DNA of 52,573 bases from a candidate division SR1 bacterium (GTDB lineage Bacteria; Patescibacteriota; JACMRA01): positions 1-52,573 of the forward strand of contig JACMQI010000031.1 in assembly GCA_014377045.1 (NCBI GenBank), read 5' to 3'. The translations under genes were made by a program, and so were the position numbers. How positions within the stretch are numbered: the stretch's first letter is position 1; every line of letters starts with the position of its first letter. The notes under the pieces were generated by a model that ran no database searches, was not told where the DNA came from, and saw only the letters and a list, made by a program, of their open reading frames with translations. Below, in pieces: positions 28,105 to 39,229 of the stretch.

Positions 28105-28139
28105 AGACTAAATACAACTAATTGAATCTACGAATTAAT

Positions 28140-30260
28140 ATGACTAAGTCACCACTTATAGCCTTAATTGGTCTTCCAAACTCAGGAAAAAGCACTCTTA
28201 TTAATCGACTTACAGGAGATCGAAAGGCAATTACTGCCAAAGAAGAACACACTACTCGTGATCTTAATTATGGTGAAGATTTTTGGGAAGGAATGTTCCT
28301 CCGTTTCGTTGATACTGGAGGGCTTGTACCTGATACTATTGATAAAATTCAAAAGCAAATTCAGGTAAAATCCTGGGGAGCAATAGCTGAAGCAGATATG
28401 CTCATTTGGGTCATTGATAGGAAGCAAAACCCTGAAACAATCAGTGATAAAATTTTATCAAAGGTATGGAAAACTGGAAAGCCAGTTCTGATATGTATAA
28501 ATAAAGTAGACGATCCAAACAAAGATGCTGATGTTTCTGATTACGCTCGTCTTGGTGGTTTTGATTTTATTAATATTAGTGCACAAAATGGCTATAATCT
28601 TAATATTTTAGCTGATATAATAGTTGAAAAATCACTAGAGCTTGGGTTTGATAAACCACCTGAAGCTGAACATCCGGTTTATACTTTTAAAAATAAGAAA
28701 AAGTCTCGACTACAGGATGTCAAAACCGATGCAGATGGCAAATATTATGTGACCCGTGAGAATTCTGAAGATGGACCTGGAATGTTTGAATCTTTTACTA
28801 ATGAATCTACTGAAAAAATCGTAGATATAGATAATGTAGTGTTTGATCTTAATAATGTCGTGTTTGAAAATCGTATTTGGCAATTACATAAATATCTTAA
28901 TGAAGAAGGAGGAATCGTAGTATCTAGGGAAAAATTAGGGTTATTATATGATCAAATAGAAGATAAAGGATATGAAATGGGTACATTAGAGTTTTTTGGT
29001 GCATTGGTTAAGGAGTTGCAGTTGGAATCATTTACAGCAGATAATCTATTTAACTTTTATTCTAATTCAAACATAGTTATTGAAACTACCTTTGCGTTTA
29101 TCAAAAGTCTCAAAGCTGATAGAAAAAATATTTATTATCTTACAAATACTAGTCGCCCAACCTTTGAATCTCGCATAACTACTGATATTTTCAGTTTTTT
29201 TGATGGCGGTATAGCAAGTTTTGAAACAGAAACCAAAAAGCCAGATCTCAAAATTTATACTTTACTGGTTGAGAAATATCAATTGGACATTAGTAAGACT
29301 ATTTTTGTCGACGATAAAGAAGAAAATATCGATACAGCAAGAGATCTTGGTATGTGGGTTATAGATTTTGATAAAGATATCACTGATTTGACTTTTGAGT
29401 TAGATAGGATAGAAACGGGTAGGGTAGAAAGACTGAAGATTATACCAAAGATTATACTGCTTGGAAAACCAAATGTAGGTAAAAGCTCGTTATTTAATGC
29501 ACTTGCTGATAAAGATATGCAGATTGTAACTGATATTGCAGGTACTACACTTAGTGTAAATGATTATTTACTAGAAAGAGAAAACAAAAACCACAAAAAG
29601 AAACAATATGTTTTGCTCGATTCTACTGGTATTCGCCGTCCAGGTCAGCGCACTTTTGGGGTAGAAACTTTTGCTACTTTTCGAACGATTGAAGCTACTT
29701 ATCAAGCGGATGTAGCTTGCTTTATTTTAGATGGTTCACAGCCATTGACCCACCAGGATCAAGTTGTAGCTGGTATTTGTAAAGAAGCCAAAAAAGGTAT
29801 TGTCATGATATTAAATAAAGCTGATTTAGTTTCACCTGAAGAAAGACAACAATATCTCAGACATTTATTTGCCAAATTTCAATTTCTTAAAGAAGTAAAA
29901 TATGCTTGGGTATCAGCTAAAGACGGTATAAACTTAGAACAAATTTGGGATTTGATTGATGAGTCTATTGCTAACCGAGGAAAAGAAATATCACACGAGG
30001 ACCTACGTAAACTCTTCAACTATATTATGAAGAAACAACCGCCAAAAAAGTTATCTGCAAAGAAGAAAGCAGTTATCTATGATTTGGTATACAAAAAAGC
30101 AAATCCGCCTACGTTTGAACTACTAGTAAAAGATAGGGAAACGATTCATTGGTCTTATATGAGATTTTTGGAAAATACACTTCGTAAACAGTTCGGTTTT
30201 GCAGGGGCATCGATTGTGGTCAAGATGGTGGAGGTGAAAAGAAAGAGGGTTTTGACATAG
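28140..30260 (+). CDS. der: GTPase Der (EngA) with an inserted HAD-like domain
   Basis: Der is a tandem GTPase needed for 50S ribosome assembly. From the ATG at 28140 the protein has 706 residues. G domain 1 (about 1-170) has GLPNSGKS, DTGG and NKVD. G domain 2 (about 437-610) has GKPNVGKSS, DSTG, NKAD and SAK. The C-terminal KH-like domain (about 615-706) ends in the usual basic tail. Between the G domains, where normal Der has a short acidic linker, lies a HAD-like domain (about 226-425): FDLNNVVFEN (motif I, second Asp replaced by Asn), YYLTNTS (motif II), KKPDLKIY (motif III) and IFVDDKEEN (motif IV). Normal Der is about 440-490 residues. The KH core and both P-loops look intact. Confidence 0.92.
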   Translation: MTKSPLIALIGLPNSGKSTLINRLTGDRKAITAKEEHTTRDLNYGEDFWEGMFLRFVDTGGLVPDTIDKIQKQIQVKSWGAIAEADMLIWVIDRKQNPETISDKILSKVWKTGKPVLICINKVDDPNKDADVSDYARLGGFDFINISAQNGYNLNILADIIVEKSLELGFDKPPEAEHPVYTFKNKKKSRLQDVKTDADGKYYVTRENSEDGPGMFESFTNESTEKIVDIDNVVFDLNNVVFENRIWQLHKYLNEEGGIVVSREKLGLLYDQIEDKGYEMGTLEFFGALVKELQLESFTADNLFNFYSNSNIVIETTFAFIKSLKADRKNIYYLTNTSRPTFESRITTDIFSFFDGGIASFETETKKPDLKIYTLLVEKYQLDISKTIFVDDKEENIDTARDLGMWVIDFDKDITDLTFELDRIETGRVERLKIIPKIILLGKPNVGKSSLFNALADKDMQIVTDIAGTTLSVNDYLLERENKNHKKKQYVLLDSTGIRRPGQRTFGVETFATFRTIEATYQADVACFILDGSQPLTHQDQVVAGICKEAKKGIVMILNKADLVSPEERQQYLRHLFAKFQFLKEVKYAWVSAKDGINLEQIWDLIDESIANRGKEISHEDLRKLFNYIMKKQPPKKLSAKKKAVIYDLVYKKANPPTFELLVKDRETIHWSYMRFLENTLRKQFGFAGASIVVKMVEVKRKRVLT

Positions 30261-30333: not shown

Positions 30334-33300
30334 ATGCAAAATATAGCGGCAAAGCCAAGCACACATGAATCAAAGTCCGAAATAAAAAAATATACTGTAG
30401 AAAGTTTAATAAGTAAATTTCATAGACAGCTTCGCAGTGAATTTAATGAGATAGTAAAAAATCCTATTTGTGGAGATTCTCATCTCACTGCGGATGGTAA
30501 AATGAGCCTGACTCAAGAATTTATTGATTGGAATAGATTTAAGCAAGATTTACCAGATAAGGATTTTAAGTTTGAGGATGTTAATCAATATAGTCCAAAG
30601 ATAGAAATAATTGGTATTAGAAATGATGATAGTCTTGAACTGTTTATACATAATTTAATATATTCGTTTACACAAATGAGTGCGTCTATTTCGCATGAGT
30701 ACAATATCAGTTCGATTATAGCGAAGACATTTGATGTTCATTTTTCCGATGATTTGTTTGCGGAACATATTTTTGATGCAAAAACTCCAAGTCATTCTGA
30801 TCAGATTGCTATTAATAAACTTTTGCAAGATTATAATTGGGCTATTGAACAATTTAGTGATGAGACAAAAGAAATTGTGCTTTTTAAAATAAAAAAAATG
30901 ATAGTGGAAAATGCAGCAAATAAATTAACACCGCAGTACTACAATTATAGTAATGAGATTTATACAAAAGAAAAATCTAGTACTCAAGAAATCGTAGATA
31001 GCGAAGATTTAGGAATTATTGATGAATATCTAAAGCAAGAAATAAATTATCAATGTGCGGAGAACCTTATTTCAAATAGTGAAAGATTAAGATTTTCTCA
31101 TTTTCCTGCAAAAGAATGTAACAATCTAAGCGAAATTTTTAGTCATTATCAAATAAGCCAGAAAAAACAATATGATTTAGTAAATGAGTATATAGCTGGT
31201 GAACTAACTAGAATAACTGAAAGTAAAGATTCTCCAAATAAAAAAGGAAATGATTTTGCTAGCGACATTGGACAAGAACTGGTGGCTAAATACAAAGAAA
31301 TTGTCACAGAAGAAGATAAAAAATTATTTACTGATAAGGTGAAAGCAAATTCAATCAAAGAATCAATCTTAACAGAATATAGAGATAATTTATATGGTGA
31401 CGAGCTAAACAATTTTGTACAGGTGCTCAACATAGATACTAAATTAACCCAATTTGACAAAGGACTCTTAAAAGAAATTAGTATTACATCTCCATCTTTA
31501 GTCAGCCTATTTGAGAAATTCAAAATTACTGATATGAGTAGCCTGGAGACTACAAAAAAAGTATTAGGTTCAGACATATTTAATTTTGCCGTGACAATTC
31601 CTAATTATAGGGTTGATTTAGAATTGACAGATGTGTTGAAATATAAAAAGTATGGCCTAAGAGGCTATCAAATAAATAATATTTGTTATGGAACACGAGG
31701 TACGAAATTTGAGTCTGAGTCTGAGGAAGTAAAATATATATTGACGCTACTTACTGGTGGTGCCGATCGTAATTGGCAAGATTTTGAATATGAAAATATT
31801 TCTACGGATTCTAGTTTAAGATCAATAGAAAATGTTACTGTTTTAGATACTGACTATATAGATCATTTAGATATGGAAATAAACCGCATTAAAACTGAAA
31901 TGGATAAAGTAGACTTGAACACACTTTCAAAAAAAGATATATTTGAATTGGAAGATGAATACACAAAATATGAAGTCAAATATTTCCAAAATTCAGGCGA
32001 AGAAAGAAAACATCAAATATCGATTTCATCTAGAGAGAAAAGCGATTTAATGTATGAGCATGAACTCACTGTTGAAGCTTACGAGCAAGAGAATAAATTA
32101 GATATAGGTTTCCGTAATATGTTTGAAGTATTTGGATACAAAGAAATGATGACATATTCAACTAATAAAGATATTACACCTCATGATGCACTGTTCTGTT
32201 TCAATGAAATCTTACATTTATTTGGGCAATCAGGCTTGAATCCACAACAGTTTTATAATAATATATTTGCAGATATAAAAGCAGATACATCTACATATGA
32301 AGCTGGATCAGCTCATCACATGCTGAATTCTATTTCACAGGTTCTAAAATACGAAAATACTAATGATATGGAGCAAACTATTATAAATATAAAAAATATC
32401 TTTCCAGAATCTAACATAAATAGTGTGCATGATATTTTTGCTAGTTGGGTCAATCTAAAGAAGTTTTATACTTTATTTCAATCGAAGTCAGAAATGTATG
32501 CATTGGCTGAAATTAAAAAAAATGGTTCAGAAAAGCAGCTAAAATATGCCCAAGAATTGATATTTCACAAAGGATCAAAAGTCAATACAAATGAAGTTAT
32601 TCGATTTATCACCAATCCAGATTCTTTTTTTAAAAGCTCAGATGTACATTCAGATTACAATCTTCACAACAACAAGAAGCCATCTAATTATTATGATATT
32701 CCACACCTTCCTTTAACAGCTGAAGATCTTAGAGATGCTATTATCGAAGGTTCGCTAGATCGAATCCAAGTATTTAGACCACTTGAAGTAGAATATTCGC
32801 TTCCAAAAACTGATGTAAAACCTCCTACTTTTGAAGAAGAGTTATCGAGAGCATTAGGATCTAGAAAAGATGATATAAAGCCTGAGGCAAAAGAAATCAA
32901 AGGGCTTACTCGAAATATCAAATCTACGCTAGAAAAAAATGGATATATATTTGAACAATACTCAGATTTCACTACAGCACTTGCAAAAATAATTTCAAAA
33001 GCTAAAATACTATCAAATGAATTAAAAATTGAACTGGAGAAAGCCATATATAATAAACAAAATGGTATCAATAAATACGAACCTGAGAAAACCATATTTA
33101 TAGCTAAAATAAATCTTAAGTCTGATCCAAATGGAGTACTTGCTGGTGATGATACTGCTTGCTGTATGCCTTTTGGTTCTGGTAAAAATAATATTTATAC
33201 AGCAAATCCAAATTGTGGTATGTTTACAATCCAAGTAAAACAAGCTGATAGTACACTACGAACTATTGCTCAAAGTGTATTAACTAAGGATTACCAAACA

Positions 33301-34275
33301 CAAGAAACTATACCTGATTTAATGTCTTTTATATCGAGTGGACAGCTAGATAAAATCAGTGATATGACAGAGAAAAGTAATGTAGTTTTAAGCTGTGATA
33401 ATATTGAACTTAACCCAAACTGGAATGACCGCGATTGTCAAGAAAAAATTAGAAAAATATACCAGGACTTTTTTAAAGAATACTTAGATAGATTTTCAGA
33501 ACTTGATAATTTAGACTCGGATAAGATAATTATAGGACAAGGATATACAGATTTGACCATGAATGTACCAAAAGTACTAAATCAATATTTACCTTTGGCT
33601 CCAGTGGCATACTCTGACAAAATGCACAATACAGTACTTAGCTTAGCTGTAGGTATTTCGGATATAGCCAAAAATCAAAAAAAATCGCAAATTAATGAAT
33701 ACGATAAAAAGATAGATTGTGAAATCACTACGCCTGGTATTTCGTATGCTACTTTTGAAAATACTCTTTCTATTTCTTATATAGAAACTACAAAAGCATA
33801 CACCGATAATCAGGATTCAATCACTGGACTTCATAATATGGAAAATGGATTGATAGCAAAAGATATTTATAATGCTCATCATTATCGACCTAATATGTCT
33901 ATTAAATACGCTGATAAAGACGGTAAGGTAAGAGGCTATATGTTTGCGTATGAAGGAAAAGAAAATAAGGAAAGTAATCTTAATTTTTTGTATATTTCAG
34001 ATTTGGCTACAGATAAGACAAGTAAGTTACATGGTGGAAGACTGATTCAAGGGTTCATAGAGTTATACGAAAAAAACTACTTAAGTAAAGGTGACAGGAT
34101 ACCTATAAAATTTCAGAGTAGAGAAAGTACTAGCTACAGGATAATACAAAACCAGCTAAGCCAACTTGGAGAAAAATTAGGAGTAAAATTTGATCTTGTA
34201 GAAAATGGACATATTTTAAGAAACGGTGAGAAATTTATTGAAACACTCATAATTCCTAGTAAAATCGAAGCTTAA
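30334..34275 (+). CDS. Giant protein of unknown function, 1313 residues, GNAT-like C-terminus
   Basis: No membrane segment or signal peptide, so probably cytoplasmic. The first 900 residues are helical, charged and without a recognised family. Around residues 925-990 is a compact region with NGVLAGDDTACCMPFGSGK and a following NPNCGMFTIQV; its Cys-Cys and Gly-rich loop look like an active or binding site. The last 130 residues resemble a GNAT acetyltransferase fold (FLYISDLATDK, LHGGRLIQGFIELYEKN, then a helix with STSYRIIQNQL), although the acyl-CoA loop is not canonical. It is transcribed alone between der and the dedA-like gene. I do not recognise a function. Confidence 0.75.
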   Translation: MQNIAAKPSTHESKSEIKKYTVESLISKFHRQLRSEFNEIVKNPICGDSHLTADGKMSLTQEFIDWNRFKQDLPDKDFKFEDVNQYSPKIEIIGIRNDDSLELFIHNLIYSFTQMSASISHEYNISSIIAKTFDVHFSDDLFAEHIFDAKTPSHSDQIAINKLLQDYNWAIEQFSDETKEIVLFKIKKMIVENAANKLTPQYYNYSNEIYTKEKSSTQEIVDSEDLGIIDEYLKQEINYQCAENLISNSERLRFSHFPAKECNNLSEIFSHYQISQKKQYDLVNEYIAGELTRITESKDSPNKKGNDFASDIGQELVAKYKEIVTEEDKKLFTDKVKANSIKESILTEYRDNLYGDELNNFVQVLNIDTKLTQFDKGLLKEISITSPSLVSLFEKFKITDMSSLETTKKVLGSDIFNFAVTIPNYRVDLELTDVLKYKKYGLRGYQINNICYGTRGTKFESESEEVKYILTLLTGGADRNWQDFEYENISTDSSLRSIENVTVLDTDYIDHLDMEINRIKTEMDKVDLNTLSKKDIFELEDEYTKYEVKYFQNSGEERKHQISISSREKSDLMYEHELTVEAYEQENKLDIGFRNMFEVFGYKEMMTYSTNKDITPHDALFCFNEILHLFGQSGLNPQQFYNNIFADIKADTSTYEAGSAHHMLNSISQVLKYENTNDMEQTIINIKNIFPESNINSVHDIFASWVNLKKFYTLFQSKSEMYALAEIKKNGSEKQLKYAQELIFHKGSKVNTNEVIRFITNPDSFFKSSDVHSDYNLHNNKKPSNYYDIPHLPLTAEDLRDAIIEGSLDRIQVFRPLEVEYSLPKTDVKPPTFEEELSRALGSRKDDIKPEAKEIKGLTRNIKSTLEKNGYIFEQYSDFTTALAKIISKAKILSNELKIELEKAIYNKQNGINKYEPEKTIFIAKINLKSDPNGVLAGDDTACCMPFGSGKNNIYTANPNCGMFTIQVKQADSTLRTIAQSVLTKDYQTQETIPDLMSFISSGQLDKISDMTEKSNVVLSCDNIELNPNWNDRDCQEKIRKIYQDFFKEYLDRFSELDNLDSDKIIIGQGYTDLTMNVPKVLNQYLPLAPVAYSDKMHNTVLSLAVGISDIAKNQKKSQINEYDKKIDCEITTPGISYATFENTLSISYIETTKAYTDNQDSITGLHNMENGLIAKDIYNAHHYRPNMSIKYADKDGKVRGYMFAYEGKENKESNLNFLYISDLATDKTSKLHGGRLIQGFIELYEKNYLSKGDRIPIKFQSRESTSYRIIQNQLSQLGEKLGVKFDLVENGHILRNGEKFIETLIIPSKIEA

Positions 34276-34942: not shown

Positions 34943-37141
34943 CTAGCTTTCTCGAATCCTAAAGTAATGGTCACCTTTTTTACCTATTTTAGCATCGACT
35001 ACAAAATACCTTCTACCAAGAAACTGTATCAAGGCTTGCTTTTTCAAAAGTTTTTCTGGCCATTCTACAAATATCAGATTTGAAGTGTTTATGAGCTCTT
35101 CTTCAATCCAGTCTTTGTCTTCATCTGTGACAGCTTTAAGTCTGTGAAGATCCATATGAACGACGGATTCTATATTTGCAGTTTGACGTGTGTTGCTGTT
35201 TAACGTTACTTCATATTTTTGCATAAGAGCAAATGTTGGTGAGGTAGCGGGTTCGACAGTCTCGATGCGCTTACAAACATCTTGTACGATAGTCGTTTTG
35301 CCCGATCCCATATCTCCACGTAAGAAATAGAGTGAACAATTACCTGTCAAAATACTATCTTCGATAATATCAATGAGATGTTCGAGAGTAATTTTTTTGT
35401 TAAATGGTATTTCTAGGGTTGCTTTATCTTCGCGTTTGAAACTTGCAGGAGCAAATGTTTGCGGCATTATGCCTTCCAAAAAATCTACGAGTTTATAACT
35501 GTCAGGATGTTGACGAACTTTAGCCAACGCTACCTCTTCTATTTGACGAACACGCTCACGGGTAACGTGAAAAACCTCACCAATTTCTTCGAGAGTATGA
35601 GCTACACCAGTACCATCAAGGCCAAAACGAAGTAGGATAACTTTCTTCTCTCTAGGTTCAAGGCAGCCATCGATAATATCCATAATATAGCTACGAAGAA
35701 CTCGATTAGATGCTACATCGATAGGTGACATGGTTCGATCGTCTTCTATAGTTTCTACAACCTGAGTATCACTGTCTTCGCTATGACCTACCATAGTATC
35801 TATAGAAACTGTATCTTGGCTAATACGCTTGAAATAGTAGATAGTATCCAAGTCTACATCTAGTCTTTCTGCCATTTCGTCATCTCCTGGTTCGCGGCCA
35901 AGTTCATCGACCAAAGCACGTTTTTCTTTTTTGTATTTATTGAGTTTTTCTTCAACGTGAACTGGTAATCTAATTGGGCGACTTTGATCAGCAAGCGCAC
36001 GTCTTATGCTTTGGTCAATCCAATAAGAAGCGTAAGTAGAAAACTTATAGCCTCTACGCCAATCGAATTTTTCTACTGCGCGAAGTAGCCCTATATTTCC
36101 CTCTTGAATGAGATCAAGGAAAGCGAGGTTTCGACCCATATATTTTTTGGCACTGTGTACGATCAAACGCAAGTTGGCATTACATAATCCGAGTTTTGCA
36201 GACTGATCACCTTGCTCTATTCGTTTAGAAAGCTCTACTTCTTGATCTTTGGTAAGGAGCGGATAACGAGAAATGTCACGAATATAATTTTGGACCGCAT
36301 CGTCTTTAAGGTCTTCACCTTGAATATCTCCAGCAAGGGTGCCTTTGATTTTTTGGGACAGTTCCAATTCACGTTTGCGCATGGTGTCATCATTCTCAAG
36401 AGAGCTCCAAAGGTTGTCAAGGGTTGAATCAAATTTGATAGGTGAACCACTATCTTCACATAAATCCATGATATCCTCAACCAAAGGCACATTTTCTTCA
36501 GGCTTCGGCATTAAATATAATAGTTCATCTTCAGTAACGAACCCACGTGTCACACCTTGTTGAATAACGGAAACCACCTGAGCTTTAAACTCATCACTTT
36601 GCTTGAGAAATTCTGGATATAAAGAGCTGTCATTTTCAATAAACTTCTTTAAAGTCCTTCCTTGGTTTTTTGTCACTCTCTTTTTAGTGATTTTTTTCAT
36701 TTTAACTTTAACTCCATCGTCAGTAAGACGGTATCTTTTACTACCTCTTTGTTCTATAAGATCGTCGTTAAGAGCTGCCATTCTGTTGGTATCTGCAGTA
36801 GATATAAGATGAAGACCTAGAATACCTTTTCGAGTTACGAGCTCTTCTGGATTAGCTTTTCTAGCAAGTCGTCTTTGGCGAATACTTTCAACTACTTCTT
36901 TACTTTGCACAGGTTGCGCTTCGGGTGGATGCTCAAGCATTCTTAAGTCATGGGCTGCCTGCCTATCTTTATCAATCTGAAGGTTTTTAAAAATTTTAGT
37001 AATTTTTGGAGCCTTGACTTTATTCGTCTTGGATGAACCAATGGTAAGTCTTTTACGATTTGCAGAAGATCTCTTGATTTTTGATTCTTCGTCAGAAGTG
37101 TTTGAATTTTGTAAGGTTTGAGCTATAGTATTTTTTGACAT
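34943..37141 (-). CDS. rpoD: Primary sigma-70 factor fused to TsaE
   Basis: A protein of 732 residues in one uninterrupted frame. Residues 1-165 are a basic, probably disordered N-terminus. Residues 170-235 resemble sigma region 1.1. Residues 280-430 hold regions 1.2-3, with AVQNYIRDISRYPLLT, DLIQEGNIGLLRAVEKFDWRRG and FSTYASYWIDQSIRRA. Region 4 follows at 495-550 (TLEEIGEVFHVTRERVRQIE). From about residue 575 to the end is a complete TsaE domain: P-loop LRGDMGSGKTT, SPTFALMQKYE, HMDLHRL and EWPE. TsaE is the ATPase that drives synthesis of t6A on ANN-decoding tRNAs. No internal start is obvious, so the two are probably made as one chain. Confidence 0.95.
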   Translation of the reverse strand: MSKNTIAQTLQNSNTSDEESKIKRSSANRKRLTIGSSKTNKVKAPKITKIFKNLQIDKDRQAAHDLRMLEHPPEAQPVQSKEVVESIRQRRLARKANPEELVTRKGILGLHLISTADTNRMAALNDDLIEQRGSKRYRLTDDGVKVKMKKITKKRVTKNQGRTLKKFIENDSSLYPEFLKQSDEFKAQVVSVIQQGVTRGFVTEDELLYLMPKPEENVPLVEDIMDLCEDSGSPIKFDSTLDNLWSSLENDDTMRKRELELSQKIKGTLAGDIQGEDLKDDAVQNYIRDISRYPLLTKDQEVELSKRIEQGDQSAKLGLCNANLRLIVHSAKKYMGRNLAFLDLIQEGNIGLLRAVEKFDWRRGYKFSTYASYWIDQSIRRALADQSRPIRLPVHVEEKLNKYKKEKRALVDELGREPGDDEMAERLDVDLDTIYYFKRISQDTVSIDTMVGHSEDSDTQVVETIEDDRTMSPIDVASNRVLRSYIMDIIDGCLEPREKKVILLRFGLDGTGVAHTLEEIGEVFHVTRERVRQIEEVALAKVRQHPDSYKLVDFLEGIMPQTFAPASFKREDKATLEIPFNKKITLEHLIDIIEDSILTGNCSLYFLRGDMGSGKTTIVQDVCKRIETVEPATSPTFALMQKYEVTLNSNTRQTANIESVVHMDLHRLKAVTDEDKDWIEEELINTSNLIFVEWPEKLLKKQALIQFLGRRYFVVDAKIGKKGDHYFRIRES

Positions 37142-38326: not shown

Positions 38327-39229
38327 ATGGATTCCAAAACATTGCGACAAAAATATTTGGATTTTATGGCCGAAAAAGGTCATGTCATTGTACCTTCTAG
38401 CAGTTTAGTACCGAAAGAAGATCCAACTGTACTTTTTACCACCGCTGGAATGCAACCGATGATACCGTATTTAACTGGCCAGGATCACCCACTAGGTACA
38501 CGTATAGCTGATAGCCAAAAATGTTTACGTACAGATGACATAGAAGAAGTAGGAGACAATAGGCATTTGACGATGTTCGAGATGCTCGGAAATTGGAGTC
38601 TTGGAGATTATTTTAAGGAAGAAATGATAGGCTGGACATTTGAATTTTTAACTCACAAAAAGTGGCTTGCATTAGACCCAAAAAGATTATTTGTAACTGT
38701 TTATAAGGGTAGTGAAAATGCAAATGCTGATGAAGAAGCTGTTGTGATGTGGGAAAAAGTGTTTGATGAGGCTGGTGTAAGTGCAAATGTTGGCACTGAG
38801 TATGATTTTGCTAATCTCAATGCCATAGGAAATTATCTTTATCGAATTACTCGTAGAAGTGGAAAAGATAATTGGTGGGGATTACCTTATAAAGGACCGT
38901 GTGGTCCATGTAGTGAAGTATATTATTTGCTTGATAAACATCCTGTAGATTTTCAGGAAAGCCTATTTCCAAACATGACAAATGATGCAATAGAAAATTT
39001 TATAGAAAACGAGATAGTTGAAATCTGGAATAATGTATTCATGCAATATGAGGGTGAAAAAACTGATAAAAAAGAACCTAAAAATCTTACTCCTCTTGCT
39101 AAAAACAATATCGATACAGGTGCGGGATTTGAAAGACTTTTGACTATAGTTAACAAATTAGAAAGTCCTTTTGAAAGCGATGTACTAAAGCCAATTGTAG
39201 ATGTTGTCAAGAAATATCGAACAAAATAA
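38327..39229 (+). CDS. alaS: Alanyl-tRNA synthetase, catalytic domain only
   Basis: The class II aminoacylation core of AlaRS: residues 1-60 with FMAEKGHVIVPSSSLVP and FTTAGMQPMIPYL, then motif 2 (MFEMLGNWSLGDYFKEE), GPCGPCSEVYY near residue 190, and motif 3 (DTGAGFERLL near residue 265). The protein stops at 300 residues with TAA, whereas AlaRS normally has about 870 residues with tRNA-recognition, editing and C-Ala domains. The downstream sequence has no continuation in any frame. Either the remaining part is encoded elsewhere (as in the split AlaRS of Nanoarchaeum equitans) or this is a paralogue beside a full-length gene. Confidence 0.9.
   Translation: MDSKTLRQKYLDFMAEKGHVIVPSSSLVPKEDPTVLFTTAGMQPMIPYLTGQDHPLGTRIADSQKCLRTDDIEEVGDNRHLTMFEMLGNWSLGDYFKEEMIGWTFEFLTHKKWLALDPKRLFVTVYKGSENANADEEAVVMWEKVFDEAGVSANVGTEYDFANLNAIGNYLYRITRRSGKDNWWGLPYKGPCGPCSEVYYLLDKHPVDFQESLFPNMTNDAIENFIENEIVEIWNNVFMQYEGEKTDKKEPKNLTPLAKNNIDTGAGFERLLTIVNKLESPFESDVLKPIVDVVKKYRTK

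Follow-up and report, generated by a model that had tools for sequence, protein, structure and literature searches.

A HAD-like domain inserted between the two GTPase domains of Der in a class-level lineage of the Patescibacteria

The der gene and its inserted domain

The window analyzed here, a stretch of 52,573 nucleotides, comes from a Patescibacteria metagenome-assembled genome (MAG) of 1.04 Mb and contains an open reading frame for the GTPase Der (28140-30260, forward strand). Der is among the most conserved ribosome-assembly factors in bacteria. The frame begins with an ATG codon and its product is 706 amino acids long; an alternative TTG start at position 28122, called by a gene-finding tool, would add 6 codons. 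The product scores 344.3 bits against the Der profile TIGR03594 of NCBIfam, which is above the curated equivalog cut-off of 306.7 bits, with the best-matching stretch at residues 434-696, and Pfam identifies two MMR_HSR1 domains and a KH_dom-like domain (PF14714). The protein thus has the layout that defines the Der/EngA family, that is, two complete G domains followed by a KH-like domain, with all G motifs present in both G domains. It is the sole KH_dom-like Der in the genome, and because it is a single copy with intact motifs, the Der core is presumably functional, with a predicted GTPase activity and a predicted role in the assembly of the 50S subunit.

The short linker that is typical between the G1 and G2 domains is absent, and 263 amino acids separate the GFDK and PKII sequences that flank this region. 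Linker length was taken as typical of the Der family rather than as defining it, and it is known to vary among EngA proteins (PMC8696166). The initial annotation had placed an insert exactly at the linker, which agrees with our finding that the extra residues lie between the end of G1 (around residue 170) and the start of G2 (around residue 434). The features of the gene are as follows.

28140..28649, forward strand: Der G1 domain, residues 1-170, with GLPNSGKST, HTTRDLN, DTGG, NKVD and ISA; MMR_HSR1 match at 7-122; 50-70% identity among the six class members
28650..28733, forward strand: variable charged linker, residues 171-198, predicted to be disordered (pLDDT <50); mean identity 19%
28734..28802, forward strand: beta-hairpin preceding the HAD domain, residues 199-221, DGxYxVxREn-eDGPGMF; G200, R206 and G212 invariant in all six species; mean identity 43%
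28815..29429, forward strand: HAD-IA-like inserted domain, residues 226-430, with a C1-type helical cap at about 241-312 (Pfam, AlphaFold, Foldseek)
28839..28862, forward strand: HAD motif I, VFDLNNVV, residues 234-241; nucleophile Asp kept, second Asp replaced by Asn (alignment and motif positions, as for the next three)
29130..29150, forward strand: HAD motif II, IYYLTNT, T335 kept
29232..29252, forward strand: HAD motif III, TKKPDLK, Lys kept
29301..29327, forward strand: HAD motif IV, IFVDDKEEN, Asp pair 390-391 kept
29439..29981, forward strand: Der G2 domain, residues 434-614, with GKPNVGKSS, AGTTLS, DSTG, NKAD and SA; covered by the TIGR03594 stretch; 59-67% identity in the class
29982..30239, forward strand: Der KH-like C-terminal domain, residues 615-700; PF14714, E=1.4e-13

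Directly 3' of der lies a gene for a 1313-residue protein with no Pfam match (30334-34275, forward strand). Further downstream, a match to the catalytic domain of AlaRS falls in an open reading frame of only 300 amino acids (38327-39229, forward strand), which is split or truncated.

The insert matches PF00702 at residues 230-404 with an E-value of 8e-12, over the curated cut-off, and also matches HAD_2. In AlphaFold predictions the HAD core carried a helical cap both for full-length Der (pLDDT 79.9, pTM 0.66) and for the insert alone (pLDDT 83.8, pTM 0.74). Foldseek matched the latter model to the N domain of soluble epoxide hydrolase, the HAD domain of drimenol synthase, 3cnh and YihX, with E-values of about 1e-8 to 1e-10 and TM-scores, normalized by target, of 0.54-0.68 to YihX and 3cnh, as expected of a HAD Rossmannoid fold. 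The initial annotation of a Der protein with a HAD-like domain between its G domains, for which structure prediction had been suggested as a check, is thus borne out by TIGR03594, both MMR_HSR1 matches, PF14714, PF00702 and the models. The hairpin preceding the HAD domain was modeled in the full-length protein as two strands at residues 202-209 and 212-220 with low to middling pLDDT values (about 54-63), and the same segment was unstructured in the insert-only model (pLDDT <50).

The full-length model was most similar to the 50S-bound YphC structures 9bsl and 9bs0 (TM-score by target 0.90), as compared to about 0.5 for crystal structures of EngA. Together with the G motifs, this match is the basis for predicting GTP hydrolysis and 50S binding. 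Because the model fits the ribosome-bound form far better, the insert may be compatible with the arrangement of Der on the ribosome and need not disturb it, a suggestion that is supportive only, since the pTM of 0.66 makes the relative placement of the domains uncertain.

The motifs of the HAD domain were read as in the initial annotation, with D-L-N in motif I and motifs II-IV kept. The Asn had been interpreted as a shift from phosphate hydrolysis to phosphate binding, and here we disagree. Among the 26 nearest HAD domains in the phylum, standalone or otherwise placed, the nucleophile is present in every one and the second Asp is missing in 25, with Gly as the commonest residue at that position. 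The solved relatives in the alignments have D-L-G or D-I-G in motif I, the former presumably being the reading in YihX. This protein is an active glucose-1-phosphatase (PMC4251788). Since the second Asp is commonly missing in the HAD-IA subfamily, the Asn is a subfamily trait, and we reject the view that it shows the domain to be catalytically dead or limited to binding. In these respects the insert resembles the HAD-IA variant 3 phosphatases, represented by YihX (2b0c, 8pno), the soluble epoxide hydrolase N domain (5mwa), the drimenol synthase HAD (9m7d) and 3cnh, with which it shares the Rossmannoid core, the helical cap, the D...T...K...DD residues and the missing second motif-I Asp, a feature of most members examined. 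It differs from them in being nested in a GTPase, in the decay of the motifs in sister species and in the loss of the cap in several of these.

Origin and decay of the insert across the class

The class-level lineage to which the window genome (G000) belongs was sampled with six species from one family (G000-G005), a small sample in which no genome is more than 86% complete. The segment between the G domains is long in all six, with 263 amino acids in G000, 198 in G001, 411 in G002, which has two HAD domains, 265 in G003, 200 in G004 and 157 in G005. Elsewhere in the phylum, about 150 listed Der frames were all 434-537 amino acids in total length, with no enlarged Der outside the class among them, and no HAD domain was located in a Der-like frame among the matches listed at E<=1e-6 in the other phylum genomes sampled. 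In phylogenetic trees, the HAD domains of Der grouped together to the exclusion of the 26 other HAD domains (support 95/83; 94% of bootstrap trees). Because the domains are monophyletic, and because the insertion site and the hairpin are shared, the sequences indicate a single insertion event in the ancestor of the class.

Fusion with a neighboring gene was considered as the source of the insert and rejected. In a genome from another family (G019), a gene for a standalone HAD protein with a D-L-N motif immediately precedes der and overlaps it by 4 bases (L033:1030-1674), but only one of 24 other Der loci in the phylum had a HAD gene within 1500-base flanks, and this HAD did not group with those in Der.

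The insert has diverged much faster than the surrounding protein, with a mean identity across the class of about 25% in the HAD domain as compared to 59% in G1, 62% in G2 and 60% in the KH-like domain. The hairpin segment is better conserved than the HAD domain itself and was retained, with its three invariant residues, in each of the six species. The nucleophile, the Ser/Thr, the Lys and the Asp pair are all kept in four of the seven HAD copies, including that of the window, whereas the other three have lost the nucleophile or essentially all catalytic motifs. One of the latter is the first copy of the tandem duplication in G002 (G002a), which has a Lys in place of the nucleophile Asp. In G003 the catalytic motifs are all lost, the four sites reading E...L...E...ST, and in the G005 insert no HAD domain was found by Pfam. 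A weak match of the G005 insert to the HAD profile around motif IV (8.5 bits, exceeded by 1 of 1000 shuffled sequences) is only suggestive of a HAD remnant. The helical cap could be recognized in the alignment only in G000 and G002a, and has been lost in G001, G002b and G004.

The der gene of G003 is itself apparently split within G2, at the beta2-beta3 hairpin, into two parts on separate contigs (L044:8004-9470 and L032:2239-2937). The N-terminal part ends with ...NDTLIERVIEDTPLLSK followed by a stop codon and the C-terminal part begins with MSKITKQYILLDSAGIRR. The GTPase may be naturally split, or the MAG may be broken at this point.

The class thus offers a natural series that includes four inserts with intact catalytic residues, a tandem pair, two badly degraded inserts and a Der that is apparently split. 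Such a series, from intact to degraded, amounts to a natural experiment.

Possible roles of the insert

We favor the hypothesis, to which we assign a probability of roughly 0.58, that the gene encodes a working Der with a captured and drifting HAD domain, which serves as a structural or binding appendage if it serves at all. Judging from the intact motifs, the sole Der most likely aids the maturation of the 50S subunit by means of its two GTPase domains and the KH-like domain. As the shared position and the monophyly show, a small HAD of the YihX/epoxide-hydrolase-N type was inserted once and in frame into the G1-G2 linker in the class ancestor, where it was tolerated by the Der scaffold, presumably because the linker is exposed at the surface. 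The HAD domain would then have drifted under weak constraint, with loss of caps, one duplication and loss of catalytic residues in several copies, such that Der would not depend on HAD catalysis. The hairpin and the folded spacer that have been retained probably represent a structural or contact module, which may position G1 relative to G2 and the KH-like domain or touch the pre-50S particle. The retention of the hairpin and a folded spacer, set against a HAD catalytic function that is not conserved, leads us to favor an appendage or a passenger over a sensor. A counterpoint is that the HAD domain of the window retains the nucleophile, Thr, Lys and Asp pair and could thus hydrolyze a substrate, and loss of catalysis in some species is compatible with a function in others.

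This counterpoint bears on the possibility that the insert is an active phosphatase, a house-cleaning or sugar-phosphate HAD enzyme that rides on an essential and well-expressed Der with no mechanistic link to it. The core catalytic residues in the window copy and three others are consistent with such a tethered enzyme, as are the phosphatases among its closest solved relatives (YihX, the soluble epoxide hydrolase N domain and the drimenol synthase HAD). In addition, LeuRS, ValRS and CarB proteins of the lineage carry nested Nudix, Ham1, HAD and serine-hydrolase domains, and the other HAD domains that PF00702 finds in the window genome are P-type ATPases only, although HAD_2 adds one more. However, the rapid divergence of the domain, with motifs lost in G002a, G003 and G005 and caps lost in G001, G002b and G004, makes this explanation rather unlikely.

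Another hypothesis, put forward in the initial annotation, is that the HAD domain binds a phosphometabolite and gates the movement of G1, G2 and the KH domain, thereby coupling metabolism to 50S assembly. The domain is located between the G domains, the relative position of which shifts with the nucleotide state in Der (PMC3466195), and the functional connection of the cyanobacterial regulator PipX with EngA (PMC8696166) provides a precedent for metabolic input. A phosphate sensor common to the clade would, however, be expected to keep its phosphate-binding residues, and these are lost, along with the catalytic residues, in G002a, G003 and G005. With the argument from the Asn also gone, and with a model that resembles ribosome-bound Der despite the insert, the sensor is a weak inference that we consider improbable.

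We also considered whether the insert supplies contacts with the pre-50S particle in place of ObgE. No ObgE (PF01018) was found in any of the six class genomes, though Der is present in all six and uL1 in five of them, and the same profile found ObgE in ten bacterial controls; furthermore, der and obgE are complementary in distribution in CPR bacteria (PMC12641178). Yet ABY1 is reported to lack obgE and to keep der (PMC12641178), and no enlarged Der was seen among the frames listed for the phylum outside the class. Together with the poor conservation of the HAD region, this makes compensation very unlikely.

Finally, every class genome for which a named record exists was assembled from a metagenome, but an artefact of assembly or gene calling has a negligible probability, since the same insertion site and hairpin recur, in open frames, in six species with independent MAGs, and misassembly, which the initial annotation had raised as a concern, is ruled out by the presence of the insert in these relatives.

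Our preferred reading of a captured and drifting domain can be set against known systems. Like other Der/EngA/YphC proteins (TIGR03594, PF14714), the window Der is a single-copy protein with two G domains with all motifs and a KH-like C-terminus, but a folded domain of about 200 amino acids and a hairpin replace the short linker. Another domain is also joined to Der in the bifunctional cytidylate kinase/Der proteins of the PRK09518 type, where it is, by name, a kinase rather than a HAD domain. The kinase is located at the N-terminus. The HAD fold of PcrP serves in protein binding without catalysis (PMC12632274), as proposed here for the Der insert, but PcrP is a standalone protein of another HAD subfamily. 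The fusion of Der and HAD is real and clade-wide, and is unreported as far as the searched literature outside subscription journals shows. A class-wide insertion of an enzyme fold between the two switches of Der shows how changeable the linker region can be.

Nested hydrolase domains and other fusions in the lineage

The insert in Der looks like one case of a wider habit of nesting hydrolase domains. The LeuRS of the window genome contains Nudix and Ham1 domains. In G002, ValRS and CarB each contain HAD and Nudix domains and LeuRS contains alpha/beta hydrolase and Nudix domains, and a class II synthetase in G003 contains a Nudix domain. In another family of the Patescibacteria, ValRS contains HAD, serine hydrolase and histidine phosphatase domains (loci of nested or joined hydrolase domains: L119, L120, L121, L122, L095, L094). 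Nested domains in CPR synthetases are likewise unreported in the same literature. It is possible, if doubtful, that HAD, Nudix, Ham1 and serine hydrolase domains have been grafted repeatedly, in this lineage, into surface loops of Der, LeuRS, ValRS and CarB, all essential proteins of translation or housekeeping, where they would replace separate genes or tune the host protein. A systematic survey of core proteins with nested hydrolase domains would be worthwhile in bacteria with tiny genomes.

Most LeuRS frames in the phylum are about 800-870 amino acids long, but many reach 930-1190 and one 1795 amino acids, and some matches to the editing domain are interrupted, which suggests that insertions are frequent. 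A fusion of a WecG-type glycosyltransferase with a Nudix domain was observed in three class genomes (L124, L125, L126).

The window also contains, on the reverse strand (34943-37141), a gene for a sigma-70 factor with regions 1.2, 2, 3 and 4, the C-terminus of which is fused to TsaE. No report of such a fusion was found in our literature search. The fusion is probably clade-wide, because TsaE lies within frames of 719-742 amino acids in all six class genomes.
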